Source: Sphaerolaimus hirsutus (lineage: Eukaryota; Nematoda; Chromadorea; Monhysterida; Sphaerolaimidae). Taken from it: DNA of 64,000 nt. This document shows positions 298 through 48,700 of the stretch, one piece after another. The notes beneath the pieces are model-generated. The model was not told the origin of the DNA, did not search any database, and saw only the letters and a program-made list of their open reading frames with translations. The first letter of the stretch is position 1. Each line of letters starts with the position of its first letter. The position numbers and the translations under genes are program-made. The stretch lies in NCBI GenBank assembly GCA_964036195.1, contig OZ038458.1, forward strand, positions 15,141,832 through 15,205,831. Reading direction: 5' to 3'.

Positions 298-3200
298 ATG
301 GGCCATTCCGCGCCGGTTATGGGGCCACCGCAGTCGCACCGACACTGGCCCGCAGTCGTTCTGGCCACGCTGCTTTTGCTGCCGCCGCCGCGCCTCTGCG
401 CCGGCGACATCTCGCGGTCGAACTCGCACGGCATCAGGTGAGTGAGGTGTTTTTTTTGTCGCCGCGGCGCGATGATTAAATGTGAGTGCGAGATGAAGCG
501 CGCCGTTGCAACTGCGAGTGGGGCTCATTCGGTGCCCGCCGCGCAGACCGCTGCAGCACGATTTCTCGTCCGGCGGCGGCAAGCTGCTGCCGGTGACCAG
601 CCAGTGCGAGCCGATCACCATCGACGCGTGCGCCGACCTGCCCTACAAGGAGACGCGCTTCCCGAACTTGGTCGACAACGAGGAGCAGCGCGAGGCGGAG
701 ACCCAGCTGAACACGTTCGCGGCGCTCATTCAGGCGCACGAGCTGTACGACAAACTCAAGTTCTTCCTGTGCTCTGTGCACGTGCCCATGTGCACGGACA
801 AGGTGCCGCAGGCGATCGGTATGTTGTCATGTGTTTTTTTGCAAATTGTTTTTTTTTGCGATGCTCAACCACGTGGCTGCAGCGAGGGGCGCTCCGCAGG
901 TCCGTGCCGCCCGCTGTGCGAGGACGTCCGCCGCACGACCGAGCCCACGCTGCGGCACTTTGGTTTCACTTGGCCCGACAGTCTCAACTGCACCAAATTC
1001 CCCGCCGAGAACAACGCCGAGACCATGTGCATGGTGGGGCCCGAGCGGCCGCACTCGGACAACACGCAGATGGCCGCCCCGAACAATATTGGTGGCGTTA
1101 TTGTCGACAACGAGTTCAAATCTATGTGAGTCGTTTTGTGTTGTGCATGCAGAGAACTGTGCTGTTGATGATGCAATTTAAAGTAAAAAAACCTTTGTGT
1201 AGTGTTAACTGTAATTAAAGTATAATATCAGGAAAATGAACGATTTTCAGAGAATAAAAAGGTATGAGAATACTTCACAAAACACATTATTATTTTATCT
1301 CCCTGTGAATTTAAAATACGTTACATTTATGTGTATATAGTACTCAAAAAAAGTTAATTACTTTTGACAACTTTGACGAGAAAGTTACCACTTAACATAA
1401 CAAATTGCAATCGCGCAGCATAAATTTACACCCAACTGGCACCGGTGTCAATCCTGTGAGACTAGCGGGCAAGAACGCCCCATGCGAACACAAAACATTG
1501 CCTGGACGGTGAGCATTTCTAAAAATCTTCACACAACATCCGAATGCTGAACTCCATGTGCCAGTCCCAGACCCTGTAAAATGCCCTGTAAAATGTCAAA
1601 TGTCATGTAAAATGTCCGGTAAAATGGCAAACGTACGTCTGCCATTTTACCGGGCATTTTACATGACTTTTGACACTTTGCATGACATTTGACAATTTAC
1701 AGGACATTTTACAGGGTCTGGAACTGCCCCCATGACAACACCACATCAACTTTTGCCTTTGCAGCTACGTGTACATCAACCGGTCCGGGGAGTGCCTGCT
1801 CGACTGCGACTTGAACGCGCCGCAGCCGTATAGCGTGCGCGAGCGCGACGTGGCCGCCACCATCGGCCTGGCCTTCGCCGTCATCTCGTGCCTCATGGCC
1901 ATCGCGTGCTGCTGCGTCATCGTGTGCAGGTTCGTCTTGTGGTGTGGTGAGGTGGAGATTAAAATACCTATTTATGATTTTGCCCCTGTTTTATGGTATT
2001 CATCCAGATGATAACCTTGTAAAGTGTAATGCAATGTGTAATGTATGTAATGTGTTATGTAATGTGTAAAATGCAGAGTTGCGAAAGCGTATTTACGCTT
2101 ACCCAAAATACCCGGGTAAATGGGTATTTATATTTACGCTTACGCTTACGCTTTCATAAAATACCCATACGCTTTATTACGCTTTCCTGGCCGAAATACC
2201 CGGGTACTAAAAGCGTAAAAAACGTTTCACACGGTCCAGTTTTACGCTTTTGAAAAAGCGTAAAACCACAAAAAAGAAAGTGAACGAGGAGGCGTACTAA
2301 AAAAATGACTGCGTGCGTGCAATAACGCATTGGACATAGCGGCACATGTAAAAAATGTCTTGAAACACAAATGTCTGGTGAAATTTGTGCTGTCAAGCGT
2401 AGCTTTATATTAGGAATATTGGGGCCAATTTAGGATTACGACGACGATTTTTTCACCGTCGACAGGACTTAGTCTGAGTTAGAAGGTGAAGCATTTTCTA
2501 GGGGGGGGGGGGTGGCTGAGTGCCTGTGGTTTCTGGGAATCAATAGGTAGCTGAGCCTCAGGAGGATCGATAGCTGAGCAACCTCTGGGATAAAAAGTTG
2601 GGTTTGGGCATTTTATTTGGGCAACCCACAATCCCCCTACTAGACTGCTCAACAGCAAGACCACTTCATAAATTTTATTTTACGCTTACGCTTTTTTTAC
2701 GCTTTCCTAGGTATTTTAAAAATACCTTACGCTTACAGTATCCACACTCAAAATTTGGAAAGTGTATTTACGCTTACGCTTACGCTTTCCAAAAATACCG
2801 GTATTTTAACAACTCTGGTAAAATGTCATGCAATGTGTCAATTGTCATGACAAATGTAAAGTACAGTGTAGAATTTCATGCTAAGTGTCAATAAAAAAGA
2901 ATATTTGATTACTGAGCGCCCGAAATTTTGTGTGACATTTAACACTTTACAGGCTCTTGCTGGGTTTCAACACACAAAAAGGAAATATCCACATCCACTT
3001 AAACAACGTCCTCAGGCATCAATACCTAGTGCTGCGATGTCCGGACGCTTGCCTGGTGCCCATCACTCTGTGCGTCGCCGTGCACGCCGCCACCGCGTTG
3101 CTGTCCATCCTCTACAGAAGCACCCTCAGCTGCATCACTTATGGACCAGCCAGGTTCGGAGTTTAATGATTTATTTCAATTACCGTGATTACTAGAATAA

Positions 3201-10433: not shown

Positions 10434-13400
10434 ATGTCGGCGATTCTGCTCGGCAGTGGCGGCGATGGGCCGCTTCCGCAGCGAATGGAAGTCGGCAGCG
10501 ATGATGGTACGTTTTCACGTGCCACACGCAGCCGATTTTCTATTCAAACTCGATTCCGTAACGTCAATGGCACATTTTGGCACTGTGCCAAATGTACGCA
10601 ACCGTGTCCCCGAGCAGATGCGCCTGGGTCAAAACGCACGCGCGGCACGGATGGCGACGCGATTGGCCGCCGCAGACGCGACATGTCTGAGCTGGAGCGA
10701 CGGCTAGAGAGCCTCATAGTGCGCGTGGGTGAAAAGGTGTGTGATTAATTAAAGCTGCGTTTACACTGCGACTTGTGCCGACAATTCGAAAAGTGAAAAA
10801 GTTCCATAATTTTGGAATAAAGTTCCATATCTGCAAGAAAATGCAGTGAAGTATACTCACTAGTTAACTGCACTCACATGCCAATTTGCAGATAAATCGT
10901 CCATGTCGTTCCAGAGTTATAAGCATTTTAAAAATATTTAGATTTTCGATCCAAAAAAGCGAACCGACAAACGAAATATTTTTGAAATGCTTATAACTCT
11001 GGAACGACATGGACGATTTATCTGCAAATTGGCGTGTGAGTGCACTTAACTAGTGAGTATGCTTTACTGCATTTTCTTGCATATATGGCACTTTATTCCA
11101 AAATTATGGAACTTTTTCACTTTTTCAAATTGTCGGCACAAGTCGCAGTGTAAACGCAGCTTAAAGAAAGCAAGCAAGATATTGGTCGTCTAGATGTTGA
11201 CCCTCCGTGGGGTTGCATTGATAGATAGCTGTGCGTTTTGTGGGGGGTTACCCCCTTCTTACCGCTGTGGTGGCCGGTATACGATTTGTTTGATAAACAT
11301 TATTTGTGCCGCAGGCAACCACGTCGCTGGAGAAAAACATCGAAGGGCTAGCCAGCGTGCTGGAGGAAGACTTGGACACCTGCAAAGCGCATGTACAAAG
11401 AATTGTCGCCACTTGGTCTGTTTCTAGATAACCGCAGTATTCCTGTATTTTTTTACTGTGATGAAGCTTGTAGTTACAAACTATCCAATTTTTCAGTGTC
11501 GTGGACATTCCGCATAAAATGACGTTGTATTCTACGCTCGTGGGCCTTCTCAATGCCAAAAATCATGCGTTTGGCATGGAGGTAAATTTTTTGGAAATAC
11601 TGTTTGGCAAATGTCCAACCTATTTTCCTGCGCGCAGTTTATCGAGCTGATGATTCAACGTCTGCGTGAGCTGATGCGAAATAATCAGTATGATAAGGCT
11701 ATCGTTCTGGTCAGTTTTGTCAGTACGGTGACACGGCGACAATTTTGTCAGTTATGAAGTATGACTGGTGCTCGAGGGACACCATATATCCTTGTCCAAT
11801 CGTTGACACCTCGCACGCAGACCACCATGTTGTCGGACCTGTGCAACTGCCGCGTCGTGTCGCCGGCCAGTCTGATGCAGTTCCTCGAATCCTTCCTCGA
11901 CGTGGCCTCATCGGCGGCGACGAGCAGCGACGACAGCGCGCTGCCGCAGGTGCGCACTGACTGGTTCGCCTACGTGTTCCTGCACGCGCTGCCGTGGTGC
12001 GGCCGCACGCTTTCTAACTGGGCGGTCGGCGTGGCTGCCAAGGGCGAACCCGATCCTCTGCTCAGGTGCCACTCCCAGACCCTGTAAAGTGCCCTGTTAA
12101 ATGTCAAGGGTCATGCAAAGTGTCGAAAGTCACGTAAAATACCCTGCAAAATGGCAAACACGTTTGCCATTTGCAGGGCATTTTACATGACTTTTGACAC
12201 TTTGCATGACACTTGACATTTTACAGGGCATTTTGCAGGGTCCGGGACTGCCCCCAGGGCAATGGATGCACTGGGCGTTTATTTGGCGGAGAGGCGAAAG
12301 CTTCACGTGCCCATGCTCAGCGTGTGGACAAGTGAGTGCCCGGCGCCGCAGCACGACTACTTGGATTGCCTGTATAAGCAGGTGCGTACTTTTCTGCTGC
12401 CGTTAAAAAAACGATAGTTTCGATACTTGCATTAAAAAACACAAGCCATCCCTAGGGTTCAGACGGGACTGACTTTTCGGGATCGGGATTGGCTTTTTGT
12501 GATTTCGGGATAGGGTTCAAACGGGATTGACTTTTCGGGATCGGGATCGGGATTCACTTTTTGAGATTTCGGGATCGGGATCGGGATTGGGGTTTCGGGA
12601 TCGGGGTCGGGATTGTTTTTTTGGGATTTCGGGATCGGGATCGGGATTGGGGTCACGGGATCGGGATTGGGATTGGCATTTTTCCGGGATCGGGATTGGG
12701 TTCTAGGGATAGAGATTTTGGCCATTTTTCTGGCATTCACAGTGGTTCATAAAGGTCTCAAAACACTGTTGGATGCCAGAAAAGTGGCATAAAATTGACA
12801 CTGGGGGGTTTGCATCCACTTTTTTTGCATGCAAAAACGTCATTATTTCACTTTTAATAATTTCCACTAATTTTTCCAGGATCGGGATCCCGGACTTGGG
12901 AGTTTCTCGGGATCGGGATTTGAAAATTTTCGGGATCGGGATCGGGATTGGTATTTTTTGATTTCGGGATCGGGATCGGGATTGGGGTTTCGGGATCGGG
13001 ATCGGGACTGGTAAATCCCGGAATTTCACGGGATCGGGATCGGGATCCCGTTTGAACCCTATTTCGGGATAGGGATTTGTTTTTTTGAGATTTCGGGATC
13101 GGGATTGGTGTCTCGGGGTCGGGGTCGGGATTGGCATTTTTTCGGGATCGGGATTGGGATCTTTGGAAATGTTCTCATATTGAAGTATTTTCTCGCGACA
13201 ACGCGATTAACCGCGAAAATCGGTTTAAAAACATGCATGAATGCCAGAAAAGTGGCATAAATTGGTTATTAGAGGTTGCTGATTACATCGTCGATTAAAC
13301 ATTGCTGGAATACACTGTTCCAAAACAGCTGTTGCTGGCTTTCTGGCACTCCCATGGACTGCTGCATGACCATGTGGAGCCAAAATTTGAAAGGGCCGGT

Positions 13401-16400
13401 CTTGCTCTTCTGGTCGCCATCGAATTTTATCTGCTTGCTCGCCGCTGACGCTACGTGTCCCACACTCATGCGGTCGTTGGGTATGACTTGCTCGCTTAAT
13501 CGTGGTAACCCATCCCCTGGCGATAGCGCGTATTGTTCCATGTATGCAATCATTCGTTCTAATATTGACCCTTGCGGCAATGTTGCCAATCGGTCATCTG
13601 TTCCCCATCTCCATGGATCACCGGTTTGTGGGGTCATTGTGCTTTGGTTGCTCGCTAATGGAATGTTTGCTGTGGGGCTTGGGGATGGTTTGGGTATCGC
13701 CGCTGATTGTCCCTGCTGCATAGTCAAATTGGCCAGGTGCGTCAGTATTTGCTGCTGTTGTTGCGCTTGTTGCTGCATTACCGCTACCAGCGCCAAAATA
13801 TCTGACGATTTGGCATTGGCTTTTAGTTCATGTCGTGGGGTGGGGACATAAGCCGCGCGGTGTAGCGCCCCTGAGACTGGGCGGATTACTGGCGATGTGT
13901 CTTTGTCCGTGTCATCATCTGAATCCCCTTCGGGGTCTTCCATGGTGATGCTGGTATCTTTTGTTGTGCTGAAGTATTTTTCCGCCAATTTTAGCACTTT
14001 TTTTGCCAATACTTCGGTGCCGTCTTTCCACGGCGAGTTGAATTTTGGCCACTTGTCTTGGCGGTATTGGTTTAGCTCATTTCCGGTGTTCAAGAGGGAC
14101 CATCTGTCTGCCGCTTAAGTCCACTCGTTGATTTTTTGTGTGAGCTCAAGCTCTGTGTACGTGACCTGGCGGGCCTTTTTCCGCGGGTCAGTTTTCCCTG
14201 AGCTACCAGGGGCGTTCTCATCGGTGTCAGGCATCTTGTGCCTACCGGGCGCTCTTGTGGCGCGCTGCACACGTATTGGGTTTACGCTGCAGTGGATGTT
14301 TGTGCTGCTGCCAGCCGCACGGGTTCAGTTTACTTTTTTTATGCTGTACGATCACCATGTAACACACTGGGCAGCGCTAAGAGGCAGGCTCACCCAATGT
14401 GTTATCCAGCTGCGAGCCTCCAAAGAGCTCGCCAACACTGGCAAGATGAGAAGTGAGAAAAATAGAACGTTCGGGGTGCGATGTGACATTTATTTATATT
14501 AACTCACCGTCGCCTTGCGACACGTCCACTTGTTTTCATATCACTTCATTTTCTTGGTTTAACATGGCCCGAGGCCAACAAATAAACAGGCCAGAAATCT
14601 GGGCAAAAGAACTGAACTGATTCCACACAATAAATGGCCACTTATAAAGATTTGGTTGAAACATGAAGTTTAGAGGTTCAGAACATCACCCCAAAACCTA
14701 CTTAGAACAGAATACAAAATATGTAGAATAGAATAGGGTGTAAAATAGAAGTGTATAATAGAGTACAATCTAGTTATACAACACTACCTATCCCTAGCTG
14801 TGACTAATTTCTTTTTCCTGCTCGCAGGTGTGCAACATGCGGTCGTCCGGCTGGATCGAGACGCTGATCGCGCGGCATTATCTCGCCTTCGCCGACGTGA
14901 CTGCGGACGCGGTGGCGCACGCCATTCCCGCATTCGTGCCGCCGGCGCACACTGCAGACGCCGTGTACCCGCTGCCCGCTGTCGTGTTTCATTTGTTTTT
15001 GGAGACCCCTGAAACTGTGAGTAGGGAGGGGAAGACTTGTTTCTTGAGTTTGTTTTGTGTCATTCGATTTTTTGGGGGTTTTATCTCCTAATATTTTCAA
15101 AATAGAATAATGTATTGCAATATTGTAATTTGGATCGATTTCTAGTACACTTCCGGATGGGGTAAAATTACGCTGATCCTTCAAAAGCATCGAACGTATT
15201 CTACTGATTTAATCCTGCATGCCTGATGCATCGTGATGTTGTATTGCAGGAGGAACAGCCGTTGCCGCCTTACGATTCGGTCGATCGTTTCGTGGTTCAG
15301 CGTGAACTCGGTTGGATTATCGATGGCTATTACACTGAACGCAAGGAGTGGTAAGTGTTTTTCTGTTTGTCCGTTCACCTCTCCACTGGCACCTAGGGTG
15401 GCAAATGGTACAGCTTTGCGGTGCACGGTACGGCAAATTTTCGATTTTGCTGTAAGCGGTACGGTACAGTAAATCTTCAATTTTGCGGTAAACGGTACGG
15501 TACGGTAAATTGGGTACGGTACGGTACTTAAAATTCCGTACGTTACTGTGAATTCTGCCAGCCTACTATCACCTGCGGTGGTCCATTTCGACTTCTTCAT
15601 TTCCAACACAGCGCGAGCATCTTGCTAGCGTGGGGTCTGCTGCGGCCGCGCGTGCCCCTCAACTACGTGATTCTCGAAGTCGTATTCGGCCAGCTGTTCC
15701 ACCTGCCGCAGCCGGTGCACCTGCCCTTGTTCTACGGGTGCCTGCTGATCGAGCTGTGCAAGCTGCAGCCCAACACCATGCCGCAAGTGATGGCCATGGC
15801 CACCGAGTTGCTCTATGACCGGTTGGATTATATGCAGCCGGCAGCGTTTGATAGGTCAGTTTGTTTGGATTGTGTACATACTTTGGCAAATTGAAAATAG
15901 AGCAGTTGGAAGTTTTCTTTTTTGTCTATCTGTTATCATAGAGCCAATATTACAACGACTTCGCACCAAGCCAGTTGTACCAAACAGATCAAGCTTTCAG
16001 TAACCTGTTTTTTTTGTGTCAGTGGACACACTAGTTGACATAAAAAAATCGGGTTCAACTAGGGTTCAAACGGGACCAGTTTTTCGGACCGGGACCAGAA
16101 ATTTTCTAATGTCGGGACCGCGCCCGGAACTGGGTGGTCGGGACCGGAACTGGGACTGTTTTTTTTTTTCAATTGTCGGAACCGGGACTGGGGTGTCGGG
16201 ACCGGGACCGCCCCAGTCCCGACTTTTTGCCGAACCCGCAGTCCTGTTTAAACCCTAGTGTCAACTAAATTTTGATCAATTGTTTGATTTCAACTTTCCT
16301 ATGTGATAGAGCATATTAAATATTATATCGTGACACTTCATTTCCATTGTTTCTGTAAAGTGTGATGCTTTAAATTTTTTTGTGTTATTTAGTTGACATT

Positions 16401-19400
16401 CAGTTGACACTAATTTGCGATGTCAACTAGTGCGCGTGGATCCAATCAGTCAAACCCGCCATTCTCCGCAGGTTCGTCGACTGGCTGTCGTACCACCTGT
16501 CCAACTTCCAGTACCGCTGGACGTGGGACGAGTGGGCCGACTGCGCCCAGCTGCCCGCGCTCGCGCCCCGCCGCATGTTCGTCCAGGAGGTGCTGCAGAA
16601 GGTGATGCGACTCAGCTTCCACCATCGCGTGTGCGAGATCGTGCCCGAAGAGTATAAGGAGTTGCTGCCGTCCAAGCCGCAGCCTAACTTCAAGTATGCG
16701 CTAGAGGGCGCCGGTGAGTCGCGGGGGGGGGGGGGGGTGTTTTTTGCGGGACTTCGTTGGGTTGTATTCGTCTTTTATAGGAGTTTTTTTATAATACATT
16801 TGGAAATTTTATCTTCTACTAGAATTCCACCTCCGTGAATCGTTTGATTGAATATCATCATCGATAGGGTGGCAGAATTTACCGTACCGTACCGTACCGC
16901 ATTTTCGGAAAAATTACCGTACCGTACCGTACCGTTTACCGCACTTTTAGAAATTTACCGTACCGTACCGCGTCCCGCATTTTCCAAAATTTACCGTACC
17001 GTACCGTACCGCGAACCGCATTTTTCAGATTTACCGTACCGTACCGTTTACCGCAAAATTGAGGATTTACCGTACCGTACGGTTTACCGCAAAAGAGAAA
17101 ATTTACCGTACCGTACGGTTTACCGCAAGCCCGTACCGTCTGCCACCCTAATCATCGATACACTAAAATTTCGTCTACCGTGTCGGAGTGGTGTTAAGCG
17201 TCAAAAGATCAGATCTGAAAATACTACAAAGTAGGTTGTCAACTTTCCGTTTCCGTCTTTCCGCATGAAAATATATTCCCTTTTCACTTTCCGTTTTCCA
17301 GCAGCTGAAAGAAATTTTTACCTTTCCGTATTCCGTAAAAATTCTTTTTGACACCCTACTACAAAAATCAAAAAGTAGATTCTTTCCAACCCTATTCAAA
17401 TTAAGCAACCACAATCCACAGACACTCTTCCGGGCACGGCGCCAGCCAAAGAGTTCGTGGCGGCCGTGCGGCAGAAGTGCACCGCCGACGAGGCGCTCGA
17501 CGTGCTCCGTTCCGCCTGTCCGCGGGGCGAGACCGATGACGCCACTGCGGAGTACAGTCTGCTGGCTGTGGACGTGTGCACGCTGAGCTTGCTGCACTTG
17601 GGCAGCAAGACGTTCAGCCACTCGTTCGCCGCGCTCACCAAGTTGGTCGTGATGTCTTTTTGTGAATGTTTTCACACGCCTATGGTGTAACGGGCCCACA
17701 CATAGTTGACATCGCAAATTCGTGTCAACTCAATGTCAACTTAATAACATGAGAAATTTTTTTGAGAGCATTCCACTTGACAGAAACAAGGAGAATAAAG
17801 TGTTACCATATAAAAGTAACTATGCTCTATCACACAGGAAAGTTTAAATCATATAATTAACCATAATTTAGTTAGATTCAGTTGACACGAATTTTGATGT
17901 CAACTAGTGTGGGTGTGGGCCTAACGTGCAGGTCTTACTTGACACGTAGTCTCTTATTCTACCCGACCCTCCTGTTCACTCACAATTTCAATAATCTGAG
18001 TCACTGTCAAACGGTTTGATCACGTTGGCATTATTCCAACTCAGGTATCACTCGACTCTGCGGGCGCTCACATCTGGCAACGACGAGGCACAGCTGGTAG
18101 TGCTGCGATGTGTCTACGATTTGTGGTCGACGCACACGCAGATGGTCTGCGTGCTAGTCGATAAACTGCTCAAAATGCAGATAGTGGAGTGCGGTGCCGT
18201 TGTTAGGTTGGGTTCTGAGGACAATACCGCACCTTGTAAAGTGTCAAGTCATGTGATGCAATGCAATGTGATGTGATGCAAAATGTCATACAAATGTGTC
18301 AAACGTTATGCAAAATGTCAAAACTTATTTTTTCAATTATTTTTATTGTCATTTTACATGACATTAACATTACACTTTACAGGGTTCGGCATTTACACTT
18401 TACACCAGTAAGTTGCCGGAAAACGAAAAGCGAAAAGGAAAAAATTTGTCCTGCGGAAAACGCAAAGGTGACACCCTAGTCCTAAAGTGCAGTCGATTGA
18501 ATCGCGCCGCGCAGGTGGCTGTTCGACTCGTCGTCGGCGTCGATGCGCGACCAGCTGCTGCGCTCGTGGGTCTGGGAGATCGTCGAAGGCACGCTGGTCA
18601 AACTCGGCCGGCACATGGCCCGGCTAAGGCGCGAGCTGGCCGATGCCAAGGACAGATTGGTTGATGCGGAGGTAGGGATAGTCGATAATCTTGTTGTTTT
18701 TTGGAGCCATCGCTGGGAGAACCAGTTTGTTCAGCTGTTATTTTGCGAATAATAAAGTCCGTGTTTGATGAACAATTTGCGACACACTGGTTGAAATCCC
18801 AAATTTGTGTCAACTGAATGTCAACTAAATAACACAAAAAAATTTTTAAAGTATAACACTTCGAAGTATAAAAAAACAAGTGTCACTGTACAAAATTAAC
18901 CATGCTCTATCACATAGGAAAATTCAAATCACAAAATTAACCTAAATTTTATTGAATATAGTTGACACGAATTTTGATGTCAACTAGAGTATGTGGGCAA
19001 TTTCATAATCTATCAGTTCATTCCATTCCATCACTTATAATGAAAAACTCTTGAAAAACAGCCGTCACAAATATTCAAGCCTCACATTCCACCTGCTATT
19101 CGCGCACTCAGGCGTCCAACACTGACGCGTCCGATTTGCTGGGCGACGCGGGAGCCGCCGGCGACCAGGTGGCAGTACCGCACTTTGTAAAATGCTGTGT
19201 AAAATGTCAAATGTCATGCAAAGTGTCAAAACTCATGTAAAATGCCCAGTAAAAGTCATGTAAAACGCGTTTGTCATTTACCAAGACATTTTACATTACT
19301 TTTGACACTTTTCATGACATTTGGCATTTTACACGGCATTTTACACGGTGCGGGAGTGCCCCAGGCTGCAGCCGCGCCCATGGACGCCGAGGAGGGCGAG

Positions 19401-20136
19401 CGCGCCGAGGACGATGATGATGATGGCGCCGAGCAACAGAATGGCGTCGATGAGAAGCCCAAGCGGGATGGCGCTAAGGTTGTCAAGGAGAGTCGAGCCG
19501 CAGTTGATGATTGGGTGGATAAGTTGGCCGCGGCGGAGAATGTGCAGAGGAATTTGCTGTTGACATTGTTTCAGGTCGGTTAACTTGGACTTGTCTCGAT
19601 TGTTTACTGCTTGAGTAACTGCACACCTTTCCATGCTCAGAACTTGACTATTCTACTCACTGAGCACTTGCTGGACAGCGAGAAGGCGGGCACCGACTTC
19701 AACACGCACTGGTACAGATGGGTCATCGGCAGGATGCAGCACATGTTCATGGTGGTCTGTTGCACTTACTTATATTGGTGGCCCGCACACAAGTGTACCG
19801 TCGGAAGCTGGGAAACTCATAAATCTGTATTGAACTCATTTGAATTTACCACAATTTTTGATCGCCATCAACAGTAGTTGACAGATTCTTCATTGTGGTG
19901 AACTCAAATGTGAGCAAAACAGATTTATGAGTTTCTCAAATTTCGGTGGTGCGTTAGTGTGCGCAGGCACATTGTTTCATAGCATGAGAAAGACATTGAA
20001 AGAAAGTTTCACCTCTCTTCAGCAACCAGAGGAGGCTGCACGCGAAGTGTCCTCCCTCGAACAGTACCTGTTTACCAGCGATGTGGACCCTCATATTCTT
20101 GCAGTCTTTCGTCAATTCTGCGCGCTATACAGCTGA
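10434..20136 (+). CDS. NCBP1: Nuclear cap-binding protein subunit 1 (CBP80), 17 exons
   Basis: Exons: 10434-10736, 11315-11415, 11497-11581, 11638-11709, 11821-12065, 12258-12381, 14828-15016, 15250-15350, 15612-15854, 16472-16713, 17422-17641, 18045-18206, 18515-18671, 19112-19168, 19365-19574, 19641-19751, 20023-20136. All join in frame to about 911 aa (animal homologues are about 800). CBP80 is the large MIF4G-repeat subunit of the nuclear cap-binding complex; with CBP20 it binds capped RNA polymerase II transcripts and acts in splicing, export and decay. Diagnostic stretches: [103 protein letters not shown], and the C-terminal [19 protein letters not shown]. Introns 5 and 14 are F1 elements. 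The N-terminus is uncertain: a possible in-frame 111-base intron at 10507-10617 would give 874 aa. An acidic stretch (about residues 795-805) is lineage-specific. AATAAA lies at 20326. Confidence 0.95.
10753..11160. mobile_element. 408-bp MITE with long inverted repeats in NCBP1 intron 1
   Basis: The left arm starts AGCTGCGTTTACACTGCGAC and the right arm ends with its near-exact reverse complement; complementarity continues for over 150 bases per arm. TTAA stands at both borders (10749-10752 and 11161-11164). The junction can be read as a TTAA duplication (piggyBac type) or as TAA with the terminal A/T inside the element (Harbinger type). No coding capacity is present. Confidence 0.85.
12066..12257 (+). 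mobile_element. F1 introner forming the whole of NCBP1 intron 5
   Basis: The intron is one palindromic F1 element: it starts GTGCCACTCCCAGACCCTGT and ends GGGTCCGGGACTGCCCCCAG. Removing it joins exon 5 (..LL, codon AG|G) to exon 6 ([19 protein letters not shown]) exactly as in the CBP80 family. CAG flanks both sides (12063-12065 and 12255-12257), so the acceptor AG can be read as the duplicated target site. Confidence 0.9.
12450..13160. repeat. YAGGGT element(s) with CGGGAT arrays (F4a) in NCBP1 intron 6
   Basis: TAGGGTTCAGACGGGACTGA at the left and GATCCCGTTTGAACCCTATT near 13045-13065 form inverted ends. Dozens of CGGGATCGGGATTGGG units fill both flanks around an AT-rich centre (12720-12880). 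The array continues beyond the right end to about 13160, so two elements may be nested. A related copy lies at 35503-35915. Pro/Ser/Arg-rich reading frames across it are artefacts of the array. Confidence 0.7.
13269..14234 (-). pseudogene. Gag-like mobile-element ORF with one internal stop, antisense in NCBP1 intron 6
   Basis: On the minus strand an ATG at 14234 opens a frame ([20 protein letters not shown]) that meets a TAA at 14115-14117. It then continues in the same frame for 282 codons ([20 protein letters not shown] onward) to a stop at 13269. Visible features are an acidic stretch ([13 protein letters not shown]), a Gln-rich run ([10 protein letters not shown]) and a C-terminal part reading [20 protein letters not shown]. 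There is no zinc knuckle, protease or reverse transcriptase beside it. Length and composition suggest a retroelement gag or a TE-encoded accessory protein, but I do not recognise the family. It is antisense to NCBP1 inside a 2.4-kb intron and is clearly not host-conserved sequence. Confidence 0.5.
15393..15562. repeat. YAGGGT element with CGGTA arrays (F7), NCBP1 intron 8
   Basis: CTAGGGTGGCAAATGGTACA at the left is followed by GGTACGGTACGG-type units through to about 15560, inside the 261-base intron 15351-15611. The right end is degraded (TTCTGCCAGCCTA). A fuller copy lies at 16866-17150. Confidence 0.65.
16020..16440. repeat. F2 element with a nested F4b (CGGGACC) element, NCBP1 intron 9
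   Basis: The outer ends read GTGGACACACTAGTTGACAT and GATGTCAACTAGTGCGCGTG. Inside, 16060-16257 is bounded by TAGGGTTCAAACGGGACCAG and a degenerate GTTTAAACCCTA with CGGGACCGGGACC units between. This is direct evidence that F4b inserted into F2. The outer element ends about 30 bases before exon 10. Confidence 0.7.
16866..17150. repeat. YAGGGT element with ACCGT arrays (F7), NCBP1 intron 10
   Basis: It begins TAGGGTGGCAGAATTTACCG and ends CGTCTGCCACCCTAA. The interior consists of TACCGTACCGTACCG runs separated by short A/T stretches. A run of poor CGGAAA-like sequence (17225-17360, reverse orientation) follows and resembles family F6. Confidence 0.75.
17690..17930. repeat. F2 element in NCBP1 intron 11
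   Basis: Inverted ends GGGCCCACACATAGTTGACA and ATGTCAACTAGTGTGGGTGT bound GTGTCAACT repeats and an AT-rich centre. It lies inside the intron 17642-18044. A further F2 copy at about 18780-19000 lies in intron 13. Confidence 0.75.
18230..18480. repeat. Degenerate F1-like and F6-like pieces in NCBP1 intron 12
   Basis: From 18232 to about 18385 the sequence has the F1 style (CTTGTAAAGTGTCAAGTCATG ... CACTTTACAGGGTTCGG) but without clean termini. From about 18413 a short piece of CGGAAAACG units ends in GGTGACACCCTAG, the F6 terminus. Both appear to be old or partial insertions. Confidence 0.5.
19169..19364 (+). mobile_element. F1 introner forming the whole of NCBP1 intron 14
   Basis: The palindromic F1 element runs from donor (GACCAG|GTGGCAGTACCGCA) to acceptor (GGGAGTGCCCCAG|GCTGCA). 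The frame is phase 0 on both sides (..GAAGDQ | [10 protein letters not shown]..). CAG is present at 19166-19168 and 19362-19364. The insertion point is in the variable acidic region of the protein, and this copy is more diverged than the others. Confidence 0.85.
19789..19972. repeat. F3 palindromic element in NCBP1 intron 16
   Basis: GGGAAACTCATAAATCTGTA on the left mirrors ACAGATTTATGAGTTTCTCA on the right, with outer GTGTACCG and GTGTGCGCAGGCAC ends. The same family (ends ACTAGTTTTCACACGAAATT) recurs at about 39973-40172, 50540-50735 and 57600-58070. Confidence 0.65.
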
Positions 20137-22262
20137 TCCGTGAATAAGCGTTGTTGCACTTGTCGTTCTGAAAGTAGCATCCTTTGTGGGCGGTATTTAA
20201 TTGCGATGGTGTAATTTCTTCGGGGCTGTATTGCCAAGAAAATTATCGACGTTCAGGTTTTTATATTCGGAGAAAATTTTTATAATAATCTTAAAAATAA
20301 TCTTATGTGTTAGAGGACTGGGGACAATAAAAATTCATCAGCTTCGTAATTAAACGGGAGGCAGATTCTGTTCTAAATTCAGAACTAGAAAGAAACACGC
20401 CTGCGATACGTCTCAATACCATGTAACGTGCAATCAATCCATGCAGGCATATGCTACTTTGGGAATGACGGTTTATAGTATTGATTGTGTGATACCATTT
20501 ATTGTGCTGATATTCGGGCTTGGTGCCAATTTCACAAGTCGACAAGTGGCGAGAAATTTGTAAGTGAAAAGCCAGGTTTGACTAAATTGGTAACTGATGT
20601 AAGGTACACAATTTCATTTGTAAGTTTATTTGTCACGTTGAGTTTAGGGATGGCCAAAAACGTTTTTTAACGACTCTGTTTTTTAAATAAAAAACGTTTT
20701 TTTTTTTAAATTTAAAACGTGTTTTTTAAAGCTCCCAGATATGTTATGGGTCAACATATACAGGTATATCAAACAATTGCCAGTACTTTGTGATGTTATA
20801 TATAGCCACAGAATGGCTGTGGAGCCATGGGATAGCATTATAAGTGGTGATTTTTTGCCAAAAATATTTACTTTTTGTCGACTTGTTATGTGTATCGCCT
20901 TTTGTCGAATGTTCGTGACTTTAAGTCATGTTTTGCATGGAATAGCACTTATACAAGGTTATAATATAAGGCTAATCCATTGACAGTGAAGGATCACACT
21001 GTAGAAGTATGTGGGAGCACATTGGCTGGATATTATATGCTACACTAACATATCACGGCTTATTATGACACAATAGCATGAACAAATGGAAGCTTTCACA
21101 CGAAAAATGCCTCAAAACCATTGAAAACAACCACAAATTGTAAAGTGTATGTGAAATTGCGCACAAAAAAATTGCAAAATACCTAGTACATAGTAAAAAA
21201 TTTTTTTGGCTGATGTTTAAAAAAACGGTTTCGATGGCTGTTTATAAAAAACGGTTAAAAAACGCCGGCCATCCCTAGTTGAGTTTCCACTTGAATAACA
21301 CCTTCGTCGATAGTCTTTGACTTGCGAAATTGGCACCTGAGGCACATGGGGGCAGTCCCAGACCCTGTAAAGTAAAGTGTCAAATGTAAAGTAAAGTGTC
21401 AAATGTCATGACAAATGTAAAGCAGAGTGTCAATTGTCATGCAAAGAGCCAATTGTGTGCCGTGTTCTATGTTTTTGTATCACCATCTTATTATCAAACC
21501 TAAGATTTGGATAGAAAAAACATAAGATCTGGGTACAAAAATAAGATCTGAATACACCATTGACACTAATTTAGATTTGGCATAATAATTGACGCTTTGC
21601 ATAACATTTGACACTTTACTTTTACACTTTGCAGGGTCTGGGATTGGCACCTGATCTGCACTTCACTGCGGATCGGTCGGTGTGTGGTGAATTCTTTAAG
21701 CCACGTGAAAAATTGTCTTTATATACTGGTTGTTCAGTTGGCATGTTGGATTTACCGTGAAGGTTGTTATGACATTCGTGCGTGATATCTCGCACAGGTT
21801 TTTGAGCTACTCAAATTCGAAGAGATACGAAACTCCAAATCTCACGCTTGTATACGTTCTGGAAATCAACGCGTAGCAAGTATTTACATGTAATCGCATC
21901 AAGTGCGGCTGAACCGCTTATATATTTACGAAAAGCACTACTGACACTTACATGATGACAAAGTGACTGAAAAAGTTTTAAAATTTTTGTTGTTTTTGAA
22001 AGTTTTTTTGTTGCTAAGATGACTTCGAATATTGGAATTTTTCAAGAAACGGTTTCCGAATTTTCTAGTTTAGTTATGGGACATTTTTCAAATTTTAAAA
22101 TTAATTAATGGAAGAGTATTATTAAATTTCACTCGAGAACTCAGTTGCGCTGAAGACGAATTACAATAGATACCACATTATTTGTCTTCACTTATGATGT
22201 AAAAGCGCCATTGCGGTATTTTAACGTATTTAGGTATTGACACCTATCCGAACCTAACTCAG
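20137..22262. other. Spacer between NCBP1 and the zinc-finger gene
   Basis: It holds the likely NCBP1 poly(A) signal (AATAAA, 20326-20331), a fold-back of AAAACGTTTTTTAA-type sequence at 20650-21275, and an F1-family element at 21349-21650 in minus orientation. The remainder to 22262 is AT-rich and I see no gene in it. The bases just before the zinc-finger ATG (CTAACTCAG|ATG) form a possible splice acceptor, so a non-coding first exon may lie in this spacer. Confidence 0.5.
21349..21650 (-). mobile_element. F1-family element in intergenic DNA
   Basis: On the plus strand it starts GGGGCAGTCCCAGACCCTGT and ends GGGTCTGGGATTGGCAC, so the sense strand is minus. It is longer (302 bp) than the intron-forming copies because of an inserted CATAAGATCTGG-type centre. 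Flanking trinucleotides are ATG and CTG, an imperfect 3-bp duplication. It lies outside any recognised gene. Confidence 0.7.
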
Positions 22263-40788: not shown

Positions 40789-42736
40789 TTTTATTCCACG
40801 ATTCAGCGTCACACCCAAAGTTCGATTTATCTGCCAAATTTGCGTCGCACGGCCAGCACGCGTTTTGGGTAGGAGTTGTAACTCATCGCTGGAGTGCCGG
40901 TGTACGGGCAGCGGACCACTTGAAAATTATTTATACATAAATATTTATCTCGTCGCGTTACCGTGCCCGCCCGCTTTTGCGCCTTATCTCATTTGGTTAT
41001 TGGTGTCAAAAACGCGCCGCGGCGGCTCCAATCGACGCAAGAACAATACTTGCCGCGCGGCGGCGCGCCGCCGCGTCGGCATGCACATGCGCAGTGCGTT
41101 TGACCGCCAGCCCGGCGCGTGTTTGGTTTAGCGGCGGCGAGCCACTCGAAGCGGCGCAAATGGGCCACGGGTATTCGCCGGTTATCATGTCCAACTTGCA
41201 GTTTGTCTGGTTGTATTGTATTTGTCGCTATCATATTTACTTGTTGGCGCATTTGAATTGCGTTTTGGATATCCGATTGTTTGCACTGTCAGTCATTGTT
41301 TGCCCGCGGCACTCCTTCGGGCGATTTCATGAGTTTTAACAATCGCTGAGCTGGAAATAATGAATGTTTAGAAGGATCGCATCATTGTGATGCTCGGGAA
41401 TAGCGCGCCTACGACCGCTACAAATAACATACGCAAAGGTGCAACGTGCATGAATAAATACATGCAAAAGTTTATGGCTGTCTGGCATCACTTTATTTTT
41501 GTAAGAAAATGATCATAAATTTCCAAAGATACGGTGAAATGTCTCCATGTAAAATGTCAAAGGACCGGTAATTTTTTGACATTTTACTGAGCATTATAAA
41601 TACATGGCTTTTGACACTTTGTATAACATTTTACATTTTACAGGGGATTTCAGGGGCTGGAAGTGACACCGGTCTATAATATTTCATACGTCAAAACAAT
41701 GTGCAATTTTGTAGTTGAAGGATGGTTTTAGGTGCATCAAAACTGGCAGGAGATCTGTGACACATTGCCAAGTACCCGATTTTTTTTAAATACTGACAGG
41801 TCGTAATGGTGCAGTTCCAAAACTTTCCGATAAAAACTGTATAATACCAATATTTATTAATATATTTATTTATGTGAAACGTACGCAATCACATCAATTT
41901 CAGTATCACAGGAACATCGAGATACTGGCATAATACTGGGTAAAATAAATACGCACGTATTATTTATTTAGGTAGGTAATATCTGCTGCAATACTGTCAA
42001 AAATCCAAATTTCTAAAAGTGTAATTTTCAGAATCAATTTGAAATAACATTTGCCAGGATTTATAAGCTGTAAATACAGTATTTTGTTCAGAGTTGTAAA
42101 AGTAGTGAACTTTTTCAAAAGTAAACGTAAACGTGAAGTATTTATTTTTTACTCACAGGTGAGTACAGAAAACGTAAAGTATTTATTTTTTACTTTTACT
42201 CATGAGTAAACGTGAGTAAATTACTTTTGTCTCCGGAAAACGTAAAAGTGGATATTTTTGAAGAATATGGCCCCAATTTTCGCTCAAAATCACGAATTTT
42301 CGAACGTTTTCACCATCAAATTTACTAGTTTATGTGTTTTTGTCTATTCTTATGCTATTTTGGATATTTTGACTCTATTTAAAAACTTTTCTCTCCTTTT
42401 GTTTCCTGTATGCCTTGAAAAAGTCTATAAAAGCCTGTTTGAAATACGTTTCCTGTACTCGCGTACCTTAAAAAAGTACGCGAGTAAATGAGTATCGGTA
42501 TTTTTTTGGGAGGAAACGTGAACGTATTTTTGCAGTACTCGAGTATCCGTATTTATCGAGTAAACGTAAATACGTTTTAACAACTACGATTTTGTTCTAT
42601 ATCTCACGTGGAACATCAATCTTAGAGGTTTTTTTGAGCGAGAAAATAATAAAAACGTATATAAAAAATATTCGAACGCAATCTCATCAAAAAATATTAC
42701 TAATGATTTTTACCGGCTCCCAATGTCACCCCAACG
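40789..42736. other. Spacer between ZP and ammonium transporter genes, with CpG-rich block
   Basis: A GC/CpG-rich patch at about 41030-41180 (GCCGCGCGGCGGCGCGCCGC) lies 250-400 bases upstream of the ZP start codon and is a candidate promoter region, by composition and position only. A degenerate F1-like piece is at 41540-41660. An F9-like element with CGTAAACG and GAGTAAA units covers about 42090-42590. I see no gene in the spacer. Confidence 0.45.
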
Positions 42737-45700
42737 TCACCTCGCTCTGTCCCTCTGCAATCTCATGTCCGCGTTGGCCGCGGCCACCGCCAGCGAGTCC
42801 TCCAAATCGACCACGTCCAACGGGACGACGGTGGGGCCGGACCTGGGGGCAGTCCCAGACCCTGTAACATGCCCTGTAAAATGTCAAATGTCATGCAAAG
42901 TGTGAAAGTCGTGTAAAATGCCAAGTTAAATGGCAAACCTACGCTTGCCATTTTATCGGGCATTTTACATGACTTTTGACACTTTGCGTGACATTTGACA
43001 TTTTACAGGGCATTTTACAGGGTCTGGGACTGGCACCTGTACTCTGTCACGAGCGCGGCGCCGCCGTGCCGCTCTGGCGGCTGCGCGTGGTGAGCCCCGA
43101 ATGGGAACAGGCGCGGCGGCGCTATTTCTTCCACGACGGTTTGTCGTCGGCGCATCGACCGCCAGCGCGGCCGCGCTGAGCTCTGTGTGGGTGATGATGT
43201 GGGATTTTGGGGTCTCAATGCGTGCGTGCTGATTTTTTTGTGCGGGTTTGGCATTAGGATGTGCAGGCAGATGCTTTACTCACATGGGGTAAATGATGTA
43301 GCACACCGATCTTGTGTGTGATGATTTGAAGGACGGTGATTGGTAAAATTTTGCCAAAATAGATACACTTCGAATAACTCTCCCCCGAACAACTCCCTTG
43401 GTAAATTCACGAAATTATTCAGCTGAAATCCCCATCAATAAATAAAATCATTTGAAAACCGACCCGTTTTTGGCGTCCAGTCTGTACTTCCTGCACGCTG
43501 AGCGGCACGGCTGCCGGTGCGTGCCCATTGTGCCCCTGGGAGCAGTCCCAAACACTGTAAAATGCCCTGTAGAGTGTCAAATGACAGGCAAAATGGCAAA
43601 CTCGGTTGCCATTTGCAGGGCATTTTACATGACTTTTGACACTTTGCATGACATTTTACATTTTACGGGGCATTTCACAGGTCTGGGACTGGCACCTGGT
43701 GGATCGTGCCCGGCGGCGTGTTGTTAGCCATGTGGTACTCATTGTGCACCAGACTTTGCCCGGCGCTCGTGCTCGCCGTGTCCAAGTGCTTGTCGATTTT
43801 CGCTTGCGCTTTTTGCGAGTTTTTGGGCAGCAAGTGCACGCCGACTTTATCGCCGTGGTTTGCGTTGGTGAACTCTTCGATCATCTGCTCATTGGAGGGT
43901 GGTTTCAATTTCGGCGGTGGCAAGGTACAGAAACACTGCTCTAACGATGGCAAACGAAAATTCTAAAACACGAGAACATTCTCGAATTTTGTTTCGCCCC
44001 GATAAAAACATTTTTAGAAAAGCTTAAAGAACAAGTCGAAAATTCGGAAGTTCGAAAAGTGTCTTCACTGGAATTTTTTTTAGGTATTTCTTGGGTATTT
44101 TTAGTTGAAAATGCACATTTCTGGCGACGATGACACCAATTTCTAATGGATCTATGCATAGCGGCAGAACAAAACAGGTATAATATGCAGATGTAAGTAA
44201 CTGCGGTAACAGCTTGGAACAACATAAAAAGTGAATTAAAAATTCGCCAGAAAAAATCAAAAATGCAAAAATTTGGTGCAAAAAAGATCGAAACGTCATA
44301 AAAAGATCCGAAAACTCGAAAAGTATTTTCGGAAAAAATTCGCAATCCGAAGTCGTTTTAGAAAAAAAACCCTTAAAATCTAAACACATCCACAGTGTTT
44401 CCCATCGTTACACCGCACCCAATTCAACTCACCAAGCGCATCATTTTGTCGATCTGGTCGTCCTGCATGCCGAGGCCGCGAATGGTCTGCTCCAGGCGGA
44501 CGGCGAACGTCTCGGAGCGCACCCTGTGCTCTGTCCAATCGGCGCCCAGCATCTCCTCGTCCTTGTCCATGCTGTGCGGTATGGTGGATAGTCCGCGCAC
44601 TAGACAGTTTGCACTTAAAGCTACCATAACCCATCTGATTAGTAGACATAAACGTGTCATACATTTTTTGTCGCAATACATTTGAGGCGTCTAATTCTAA
44701 AAGTCGACAAGTCCACAAAATGCAATTTTGAGTAAATCCCATTTTAAGTTTCAAACCCAATTCCAGGCACCAGGTGCGTGTCCAATTTGGCTCTCTCATG
44801 CTTTCCATTAAGTTCCATATGTTGACAATAAAGTGTCAAATTTTCAGCCCCTAATCTCAACGTATATGTGAAAAATATGGTTGTCCATAAAATTCCATTC
44901 GGTCGGAGCAAAACTGTTTTTGGGAGGGAAATGGACTTGTCGCCTTCTTGCACGCGAGAACATTTTTGTTCCCGCCCGCGTTGGGCCTGCCTTATGGGAA
45001 ATTTATGTACTTGTCGACTTTTAGAAATCGGTACCCATAGTGGACTTGCGTTTTTTCCCATAAAAAAGGATGCGTAGGATGGACTTGTCGACTTTTAGCC
45101 CAAAACTAAGTGGACTTGTCGACTTCTTGCCCAATTTTTTTTGCATTTTTCCCAAAAGATGTCAAATTTGGCACTATGCCATATAGGCATGTGATGTCAA
45201 AAAATTTTATGGAAAATGATGAAAAATGTGCGGAAGTAGCCCCAGATGACGTTTCCGGGCCTAACTCGAAATTTTCATATTTTGGACTTGTCGACTTTTA
45301 GAATTGGACGCCTCATTTATTTCAGTATGAAATGATTTAACTCAAAAAAATATCATGACACTTTATTCAACAAAATATGGTAACATTCGGTACAAAGCAT
45401 GCGGTCTGTTCATTATATGAAGAAACGACTGAGGGGGGGGATGGGTAGAACGCCACGGTTACGGCTTTTTGGTGCCCGACGCCCAGGCCCAGAGTGATGT
45501 CCCAGGCGAAATTAAAAAATTTCAGTTTTCCATTTTCAGGCCCACTGTCACAGCCTGGTGTCAGTCCCAGACCCTGTAAAATGCGAAATGTCATGCAGTA
45601 TCAAAAATTCATGTAACCCTGGAAAATGGTTTTGAAAATTTTTCTAAAGCATTTTACATGGCTTTTGATACTTTTAATGACATTTTACATCTTTCACGTA

Positions 45701-48700
45701 CGGCATTTTGCTGGGCCTGGGGCTTCCCCCAGATATTGTGAACGAAACAACAGAGCCACAGAGCCAGACTGGTCGCGGCGCCGGAAACGCTGGCTTTTCT
45801 CCGTCACTATGAATAGGAAAGAATGGTGAAAACAAAACACACCGCATGAGATTTGTGAACCGCAGAAAAACAAAGATGAACATGGTGATGATGGTGGACC
45901 ACGTGCCGACGGCGACCAGCCCGATCGCCTGTATTCCCAGCAGTTTCGGGCCGCCCCCGTGCACAAGGCCCGCCATTCCGGATAGACTGAAATAATTTTA
46001 TGCCTCATTTTACGAAGCTTTTTTGGAGCGCGGACGTATAAATCGACCTGTTAAAGTCATTTTTGCCAAATATGCCTATTGCCAGCACGCCCCAGGCTGC
46101 GGCGGCCAGATGTACGGGGACGGCGCCGACGGGATCGTCGATGTGCAGCACGGCCTCCAGCAGGTGCGTGCAGCCGATGGCTATAGCCGCGCCTGGGTGG
46201 AGCACACTTTATTGCCACACTATAGTTTTCCTACGCGTGGCGCTTTCCTCAAAAATTAGCCAAATTTCATACTAAAATAGGTACCGCATATGCCTGAATT
46301 AGTATTGGGAGTTCAAAAATTTTCTGGCGATACAATAAACCCCCGCTCGAATTACCCCCCCTCCCTGGAAATACCCCTCTCAAAATTCTTACTCTGAAAA
46401 ATAACCCCCCAAGGGGGGGGGGGTATTTCGATGAAAGACAATTTGTTATGTCCAATTTGAACAAAAATGTCATGTTATTGTCAATAAAGCATATTTTTGC
46501 ATGAGTTGATAAATTAAATGCTGGAAAATTTTGACGAAATATAATTCCTCCCCTCGAACAATTCCCCCTGGAATAGCCCACCACCTCAAAAAAATCTGTG
46601 GGGAGAAAATAATTCCCCAAGGGAATTATTCGAGCAAATACGGTATATCTAGAACGAACCCACTGCACCAATGAACAGAGACTCGGCGGGACTGAACACC
46701 GGGCAACCGGCGGTGACGCCCACCAGGCCGCCCAGCACCGACGTGACGATGTAAGCAACGTCGTAAGCTCTATAGAAAATGTAGGACAGAAACAGGCCGA
46801 CCAGACCGCCGCCGATGCTGCCGTTCAGCGTGATCACGCCCACCTGCGCGGAGATTGTCCATTTTTTTTGACGGGTCTTGGCTACTGATTAAAAAGCGCC
46901 ATGGCGCTGGTCCTGGCGCTAGCGCCAAAGGAAAAACCGCCATGGCACGCCCTTTCACGCACCTTGGCGGCCATTTTCCACAGGTCGCCGGACACGCCGA
47001 ACGTGGAGCCGCAGTTGAACGCCAGCCACGCCCACCAGAGCATGAAGGTGCCCGTCAGCGCGGTCACCGGGCTGCTCTGGTCGCAGTCCCAGACCCTGTA
47101 AAACGTCCTGTAAAATGTAAAATGTCAAGTGTCAAAAGTAATGTAAAATGTCCGGTAAAATGGATAACGTACGTTTGCCATTTTACCGGGCATTTTCCAT
47201 GACTTTTCACACTTTGCATGACATTTGACATTTTACAGAGCATTTCACAGGGTCTGGGACTGGCACCAGACCAAATTCGTCGCGGTGACTGGGCACGAAG
47301 CGGCCCACCCTGGGGCCGAGCATTTTGGCCGCCACCAGCGCCGAAAAACCGCCCGTGCAGTGCACCACGCAGCCGCCGGCGAAATCGTAGAAGCCTATTC
47401 TTCGTAACCAGCCCGTCTGGTTCCACGCCCACGATGCGGGAAAGCAGTAGACAAATATGTTGAGCGCGCTGAAAATTGATGGGCTAAAATATTGGCAAGG
47501 ATCGTGGACCTAGCAGTCAGCACCAAAAAGGTCTCAAGGGCTGCCTCACTGGCTTAGATACGGTGTGTTTACTGCTCTAATACTTACATACCGTATTACC
47601 TCGAAATTACCCCCCCCCCTTGAATTAACCCCTCCTCGAATTGACCCCCCTGAAAATTTGCTGGCTTAATGATAAACCCCCTGGGGGGTATTGGGGATTA
47701 CTTCGAGGTATTACGCTAGTCAATCACTAAATACAAAAGAAACTACTGCCTAAAAATAAATACCTTCATTCAGGAAACTAAAATGCCGATCCCCACAACT
47801 TTCACACAGGCGTACTTTCTTCAGCTTTATGCATACCAGAGAGTGCCCAGTGATCTTTTATATCGACTGAAAAATCCACAATGTACCGGCAAAGCAAGAC
47901 CCACCTGAAGAGCATGTAGCCGTTGAGTTTCATCCGCTCGGCGACCGCGCCACTGACGATCGTCGTGGCGGCGGTGGCGAAGCTGAACTGAAACACGTAG
48001 TGCACGTAGGCGCTGCCCATGTCGCCGTCCTGCAGAGTGCGCGTGAAAAAGAAGTCGCCCATGCCGCAGAACCAGTTGGACGGCTTGCCGAACGACACGC
48101 CGTAGCCCAGACACCAGTAAACCATGCCGCCTGCGTGTGGTTGGGGATGCGGGTTGTGTGCGTTTCCTGTGCTGCTTTTGGTGTCATATTTAGTACACTA
48201 CGACAATGGCGACCCGCGCACTAGTTGACATATGTGTGTCAACTGATCTGTGTCAACTCAGATTACGGCCTCACGTGTCGCAGCGCGATCTCCATGTGCA
48301 CACGCGGCAATTTTTGAAAATAAATGTTACGGCAAGTGCACGGGAAGATCCCTCTGCGACAAGTCCAAATTTAAGTTGACACAGACCAGTTGACACACAT
48401 GTCAACTGATGTGTGGGCCACCAGTATGGCGCTCCACACGGTGGTTGACACTACTTTTTTGAAGTCGATTGAGTCAACTCAGAGTCAACTCTTTTCTTTT
48501 GAGTTGACTCCGGAACCTATTTAGTTGAAAACGTGTGCACTTTTTTTGTGTCAACTGAAAAATTTGGACAGTTGACAATTTTGAGAAAGTGACAAATCAG
48601 CTAAAAAGTGTATGTTTTTCATTCAGTTGACTTTTCTTGATGATTACTTTTGTCAATTGGGTGATTTTATTAGGCAAAAATCAACTTTAGTTGACCTTTT

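Follow-up and report, generated by a model that had tools for sequence, protein, structure and literature searches.

Does the short palindromic element F1, found in many copies in the genome of the nematode Sphaerolaimus hirsutus, become an intron when it inserts into a coding exon? The question is raised by a window of 64,000 nucleotides (the whole stretch of DNA analysed, in which all coordinates below are given), where an earlier note, made from the sequence alone, had described a palindromic element as an exact intron of the NCBP1 gene at 12066..12257. Gozashti et al. (2022) describe introners derived from DNA transposons as families of near-identical introns with terminal inverted repeats (TIRs) and/or target-site duplications (TSDs) in coding sequence, and the portion of that paper drawn on here reports introners in just two animal groups, with copepods named (PMC9860276). 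Judged by titles and abstract openings among the matches listed, the literature describes no nematode introners. The analysis below leads us to the view that F1 is very probably a short non-coding derivative of a DNA transposon (MITE) which acts as an introner. Splicing itself, the use of GT-TG boundaries, the role of the hairpin, the transposase family and the recent gain of these introns are things that we infer from one assembly.

An F1 copy as an exact predicted intron of NCBP1

The NCBP1 (CBP80) gene was assembled manually on the forward strand at 10434..20135, with splice signals and homology as guides. The model comprises 18 exons and 17 introns, and its exons join into a single frame of 874 codons with no internal stops. 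The open frame containing exon 11 matched CBP80 chains with an E value of about 1e-25, and the joined protein displayed 40-47% identity to animal NCBP1 proteins in the best 120 of 299 matches, among which no nematode names were seen. Gene model, palindrome, frame test and homologue junction all identify intron 6 (12066..12257, forward strand, 192 nt, phase 2, GT...AG) as a copy of F1, with the boundaries CAG|GTGCCA...CCCCCAG|GG. The left copy of the target triplet (CAG, 12063..12065) provides the final three bases of exon 6, and the right copy (CAG, 12255..12257) acts as the predicted 3' splice site. The arms of this near-perfect palindrome, 12053-12150 and 12170-12267, are 85% complementary, and RNA of 12056-12267 was predicted to fold with -142.3 kcal/mol, as compared to -59.2 (sd 4.5) in 200 shuffles (z -18.7). 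Local alignments of this intron with other F1 copies stop within a few bases of its splice sites. Inverted repeat, fold and the 18-exon model thus agree with the claim of an exact intron, and the alignments with the further claim that the F1 termini are its boundaries.

The same note had stated that removal of the element restores the reading of CBP80, and this was borne out by the stop-free frame and by the homologues. The 120 homologues show neither insertions at the junction nor gaps in the two columns that form it, though not one of them aligns without gaps over six residues on each side, because the query carries extra residues just upstream. If the intron is retained, the frame stops at the eighth codon, and with the terminal donor no other AG in the last 70 nt restores it. 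A second F1 copy corresponds to intron 15 (19169..19364, forward strand, 196 nt, phase 0, CAG/CAG) by gene model and frame test. The stretch around it has no counterpart in any of the 120 homologues, so that homology gives no test of this junction. F1 therefore accounts for 2 of the 17 NCBP1 introns.

Other repeats were seen in introns of the same gene. Intron 2 holds a second palindrome (10789-11124) unrelated to F1, with arms of 160 nt that are 94% complementary and spaced by 16 nt, which falls short of the intron ends. Introns 10 and 12 contain inverted copies (16263-16374 and 17762-17873, 80% complementary) of another repeat.

Five predicted F1 introns in two genes of the window

The earlier note had one F1 intron, and model and frame test now extend the observation to five of the same kind in the window, two in NCBP1 and three in an ammonium-transporter gene on the reverse strand (42737..50472). 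The model of the latter covers exons 1-7 and, solely from open frame and splice signals, the four final exons of the tail; it leaves out the stretch from 45843 to about 44690. In a tree, the transporter grouped with the nematode Plectus sambesii and three other sequences with 100% SH-aLRT. Its intron 3 (47077..47266, reverse strand, 190 nt, phase 0, CTG/CAG) interrupts the conserved core, at a junction that is free of insertions in all 119 homologues. The other two F1 copies, both on the reverse strand and flanked by CAG/CAG, are a tail intron (43536..43695, 160 nt, phase 0), which has an inner deletion in one arm, and the last intron (42843..43036, 194 nt, phase 2), so that F1 makes up 3 of about 11 transporter introns.

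All five copies lie in the orientation of the gene, all introduce a stop if kept, and in all the frame is restored upon removal, with lengths that leave 0, 1, 1, 1 and 2 when divided by three. With the terminal donor, the terminal AG alone restores the frame. Donors at +6 or +18 paired with the terminal AG are also in frame in most CAG copies; these were rejected, as they would insert residues where none of the 120 NCBP1 and none of the 119 transporter homologues have any.

Further F1 copies lie outside exons or in the middle of introns, as the earlier note had observed. The copy at 1558..1733 (forward strand, CAT/CAT flanks) is outside coding exons near a Frizzled-like gene, whose two best matches are from Ascaris and Auanema, followed by a hemichordate and a centipede, with further nematodes lower. 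A diverged copy with CTG/CAG triplets lies at 45558..45732 (forward strand), antisense within the transporter gene, and an F1-like relic at 18215..18409 (reverse strand) within NCBP1 intron 13 stops short of the intron ends. The remaining ones, all on the reverse strand, are a longer relative that shares its ends with F1 and lies downstream of NCBP1 (21346..21652), and a partial (41501..41672) and a diverged copy (63430..63593) outside the modelled genes. Two inverted composites of the longer relative, about 90% alike and about 6 kb apart, were noted at 25577-26050 and 32000-32410. The window also contains tandem-like arrays of the short degenerate motifs GGGATCGGGATT, TACCGTACCGT and ACGGAAAACGGAAA in introns and intergenic sequence (12450-13170, 16880-17150, 36384-36605, 38114-38328), and two open frames with, by eye, a retroelement-derived look (37086-37592, forward strand, 168 codons; 13269-14114, reverse strand, 281 codons).

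Copies such as those at 18215-18409, 45558-45732 and 1558-1733, which sit in larger introns or outside exons, would be in keeping with F1 having inserted into pre-existing introns, or having replaced them via gene conversion. Against this, each of the five coding introns comprises F1 and a single target triplet and has no remnant of an older intron. Replacement would not yield matching CWG triplets, and about half of 80 copies sampled genome-wide are directly flanked on both sides by coding sequence in the same frame. We consider an origin from older introns to be very improbable.

Target-site duplication and copy number in the assembly

The searched assembly comprises 348,482,957 bases in 762 contigs. 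A whole-genome search returned 677 occurrences of the exact 26-base F1 left end, and none of its reversed control. The ends of F1 are GTGCCAGTCCC on the left and GGGACTGCCCC on the right. A pattern of exact 11-base ends with 155-185 bases between them recovered 171 CAG/CAG, 105 CTG/CTG, 55 CTG/CAG and 29 CAG/CTG copies, and no controls. Left and right triplets are identical in 276 of these 360 copies, as compared to 185 expected (p 6e-24), and mixed in 84. Of the 39 closest matches to the copy at 12066-12257, 27 have agreeing triplets as registered; the other 12 are mixed, some of them being out of register or read off the opposite strand. F1 thus generates a 3-bp target-site duplication of CWG, which specifies the target preference mentioned in the earlier note. 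Since matching CWG triplets flank it, F1 is a derivative of a DNA transposon, and in structure and copy number it corresponds to a MITE: about 190 bp, non-coding, with mutually inverted halves, inverted-repeat ends and many copies.

CTG/CAG copies outnumber CAG/CTG copies (p 0.006), an excess that fits a slow change of TG to AG, though clouded by duplicates and by changes in the left copy. To the eye, some 11 of the 29 CAG/CTG copies seem to stem from one duplicated locus (8 lie on contig C9) and 4 from another. Such duplicated loci bearing one F1 copy (L036/L038, and the CAG/CTG places on contig C9 at 24.96-25.76 Mb) would be either contigs of two haplotypes or segmental copies. Immediately following the right triplet, G is found in 36 of 40 CTG/CTG, 22 of 40 CAG/CAG and 13 of 20 CTG/CAG copies, and the difference between CTG/CTG and CAG/CAG copies is also seen outside coding sequence.

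The heavy presence of F1 in exons, biased to the sense strand (see below), could also be expected if F1 spread as RNA by reverse splicing and not as DNA. A target-site duplication is not, however, an expected product of reverse splicing, and the inverted-repeat structure of F1 and its many copies that are antisense, intergenic or without coding flanks also speak against it; we regard spread as RNA as extremely improbable.

F1 splits coding sequence across the genome

Insertion into coding sequence was assessed in hand-picked spreads of 40 CAG/CAG and 40 CTG/CTG copies, the flanks being scored by codon log-odds derived from NCBP1 and the transporter gene, with a two-sided same-frame score of at least 7 as the call. 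A spanning open frame had been tried as the coding test and was rejected, with the sense frame longer in just 24 of 40 copies and mismatched flank pairs giving nearly equal results; this test is weak in GC-rich sequence, and codon log-odds and Pfam were therefore used. Coding flanks on the sense strand were called in 23 of 40 CAG/CAG and 21 of 40 CTG/CTG copies, and about half of 20 CTG/CAG copies also had coding flanks. On the antisense strand, scores of at least 7 were obtained in 12 of 40 and 13 of 40 copies, respectively, and these are mostly shadows. The sense calls fall in phase 0 (13 CAG, 19 CTG) and phase 2 (10 CAG, 2 CTG), with none in phase 1. Coding copies displayed no difference from other F1 copies in divergence, self-complementarity or internal GT..AG pairs.

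Conserved domains were found to continue across the junctions once the element was removed. Pfam domains above the curated cut-off span the junction in 5 of 20 peptides from CAG copies (protein kinase, laminin EGF, EF-hand pair, I-set and AlaDh/PNT), with two further junction-crossing matches below the cut-off. The same was true for 8 of 13 CTG/CTG peptides (sugar transporter, EF-Tu domain 2, tyrosine/serine kinase, peptidase M18, mitochondrial carrier, laminin N, Sec23 helical and Oscp1), with one further match below the cut-off, and for 1 of 5 CTG/CAG peptides, where the Mon2 C-terminal region spans the junction. No Pfam matches were obtained in the 7 antisense peptides scanned. The assembly thus contains what characterises an introner, namely near-identical predicted introns that are alike up to both splice sites, and insertion into exons with the frame kept upon removal. 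Together with the five introns of the window and the CWG duplication, these coding copies uphold the earlier view of F1 as a mobile element that has turned into an intron.

Sense scores were the higher in 20 of 23 CAG and 20 of 22 CTG copies that reached at least 7 on either strand, that is in 40 of 45 scorable copies (p 8e-8). This bias bears on whether F1 might be excised precisely from somatic DNA, in the manner of IES-like elimination, instead of being spliced from RNA. Excision at CWG would be exact regardless of the last two bases, and would explain the copies at CTG sites; yet excision of a palindrome should ignore the direction of the gene, and the left end of F1 provides a GT donor. 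In our estimation somatic elimination is very improbable.

CTG-site copies as putative GT-TG introns

If a 3' AG were required, CTG-site copies were predicted to avoid exons. This prediction failed: they are as frequent in exons as CAG copies and show a similar sense bias, and the median divergence from the consensus is 0.078 for CTG and 0.079 for CAG copies. A terminal GT..AG is present in 20 of 20 coding CAG copies and in 0 of 20 coding CTG copies. The proteins interrupted by CTG copies are conserved at the junction, with gap-free alignments of 100 residues across it in a U5-116K-like protein and of 92 residues in an aspartyl aminopeptidase; in a cGMP-dependent-kinase-like protein, the alignment runs unbroken through the junction, with a small gap upstream. 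The U5-116K-like gene, a spliceosomal gene, is split by the CTG-site copy L098 on contig C1. As CTG copies proved common in exons against the prediction, the simplest reading of the coding ones, which we infer from sequence, is that they are GT-TG introns.

Alternatively, CTG copies may be spliced at internal GT and AG sites, leaving transposon residues in the protein, or be retained, with CAG copies alone being true introns. An internal, in-frame and stop-free GT..AG pair that would leave 63 nt is present in 16 of 20 coding CTG copies, and the predominance of CTG/CAG over CAG/CTG copies looks as though TG were disfavoured. In human U2 introns, TG 3' splice sites (often CTG) are alternatives beside AG, and none is constitutive in the part of the survey drawn on here (PMC2374985). 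On the other side, 2 of the 20 coding copies are without any such in-frame, stop-free internal pair, and pairs of the 63-nt type are not commoner in coding than in other CTG copies (17 of 20 vs 14 of 20, p 0.45). The gap-free junctions, and the divergence and sense bias that equal those of CAG copies, also argue against internal splicing, which we regard as possible and on balance unlikely.

To return to GT-TG introns, human TG acceptors occur only as alternatives next to an AG (PMC2374985), whereas in F1 the TG would be the sole end that gives a seamless exon join. F1 CTG copies share the nearby AG of TG-acceptor U2 introns, as 19 of 20 coding CTG copies carry an AG at about -19 or -31 from the end. 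We lean, with modest confidence, towards a reading in which one element gives two kinds of intron according to the middle base of its target, GT-AG at CAG and constitutive GT-TG at CTG. One animal would then have tens to hundreds of TG introns, in conserved genes including the U5-116K-like one, some of them later gaining an AG, and the hairpin would position the ends so that the second splicing step needs no AG.

A proposed route from insertion to intron

F1 inserts at CWG in the coding exons of many genes, nearly always in sense orientation, and these three bases are duplicated; taking out the element with one CWG copy restores the frame. At a CAG site, the transcript would read ..CAG|GTGCC...CCCC-CAG|.., so that the 5' splice site would come from the element and the 3' splice site from the duplicated target. 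Splicing out the element and one copy of CWG would give back the coding sequence as it was prior to insertion, in any phase. At CTG sites, the copies would be spliced out with the same boundaries, as introns of the GT-TG type; the internal AGs some 19 or 31 nt upstream perhaps serve the first splicing step in these, and some CTG copies may acquire an AG later. An antisense F1 offers no GT donor, and antisense copies are mostly missing from exons.

The hairpin may hide most decoy AGs in its stem while its base keeps the true ends mostly free of pairing, and thus may guide the joining of exons. Fold predictions gave full pairing for 57 of 74 upstream AGs; of the two termini, GT was fully paired in 7 of 40 copies and WG in 5 of 40. 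Coding copies gave no sign of retaining their hairpin or internal sites better than other F1 copies do.

Relation to known transposons and introners

In its CWG duplication F1 resembles the NuwaI group of PHIS (PIF/Harbinger-like) transposons, which duplicate CWG and whose TIRs usually begin with GGG (PMC4482050). The right end of F1 also begins with GGG, whereas its left end begins with GTGCC and hence provides the GT donor; our guess is that the left end derives from a GGG end. NuwaI was reported from 16 animal genomes, with nematodes not among them in the part of the paper cited (PMC4482050). PIF/Harbinger-type transposase is present in the assembly (163 DDE_Tnp_4 matches), and F1 ends were absent at the two of these copies inspected. 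The matches form a large uniform family, most members of which have four TGA codons in the matched stretch that may be introns or decay. The 22-base inner end of F1 was not found in viral contigs.

The introner of Chrysochromulina likewise carries a 5' splice site and recruits the 3' site, but has 4-bp TSDs and, in the account drawn on here, lacks TIRs (PMC9860276), unlike F1, which is palindromic over its full length and has TSDs of CWG. Two introner classes of Micromonas, IE-B and IE-D (25 and 6 members), are repeat introns with GT-TG sites, as is putative for the CTG copies of F1; however, they prefer phase 2 and vary in length (PMC3879977), whereas F1 is one element with AG or TG ends according to target, and lies mostly in phase 0 at CTG. 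The internally symmetrical (stw)introns of Hypoxylaceae resemble F1 in proliferating and in having long inverted repeats and the potential for double-stranded RNA, but DNA transposition was excluded there, as the cited part of that work describes them as without short flanking duplications (PMC8469720), which F1 has. For 168 novel introns of Caenorhabditis, no source sequence is reported in the part of the paper used here (PMC9169325).

Significance

The sources of new introns are seldom visible in animals, and with F1 one can see the source itself, where it ends and the rule by which it chooses its target. That target, CWG, accounts in one step for a new intron that follows CAG and for the restored frame. 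Provided that the copies ending in TG are spliced, the many matched insertions of this one element at CAG and CTG, being of the same age, would constitute a natural experiment on the need of the spliceosome for a 3' AG, and the splicing machinery of this nematode may itself depend on the removal of F1 from the U5-116K-like gene.
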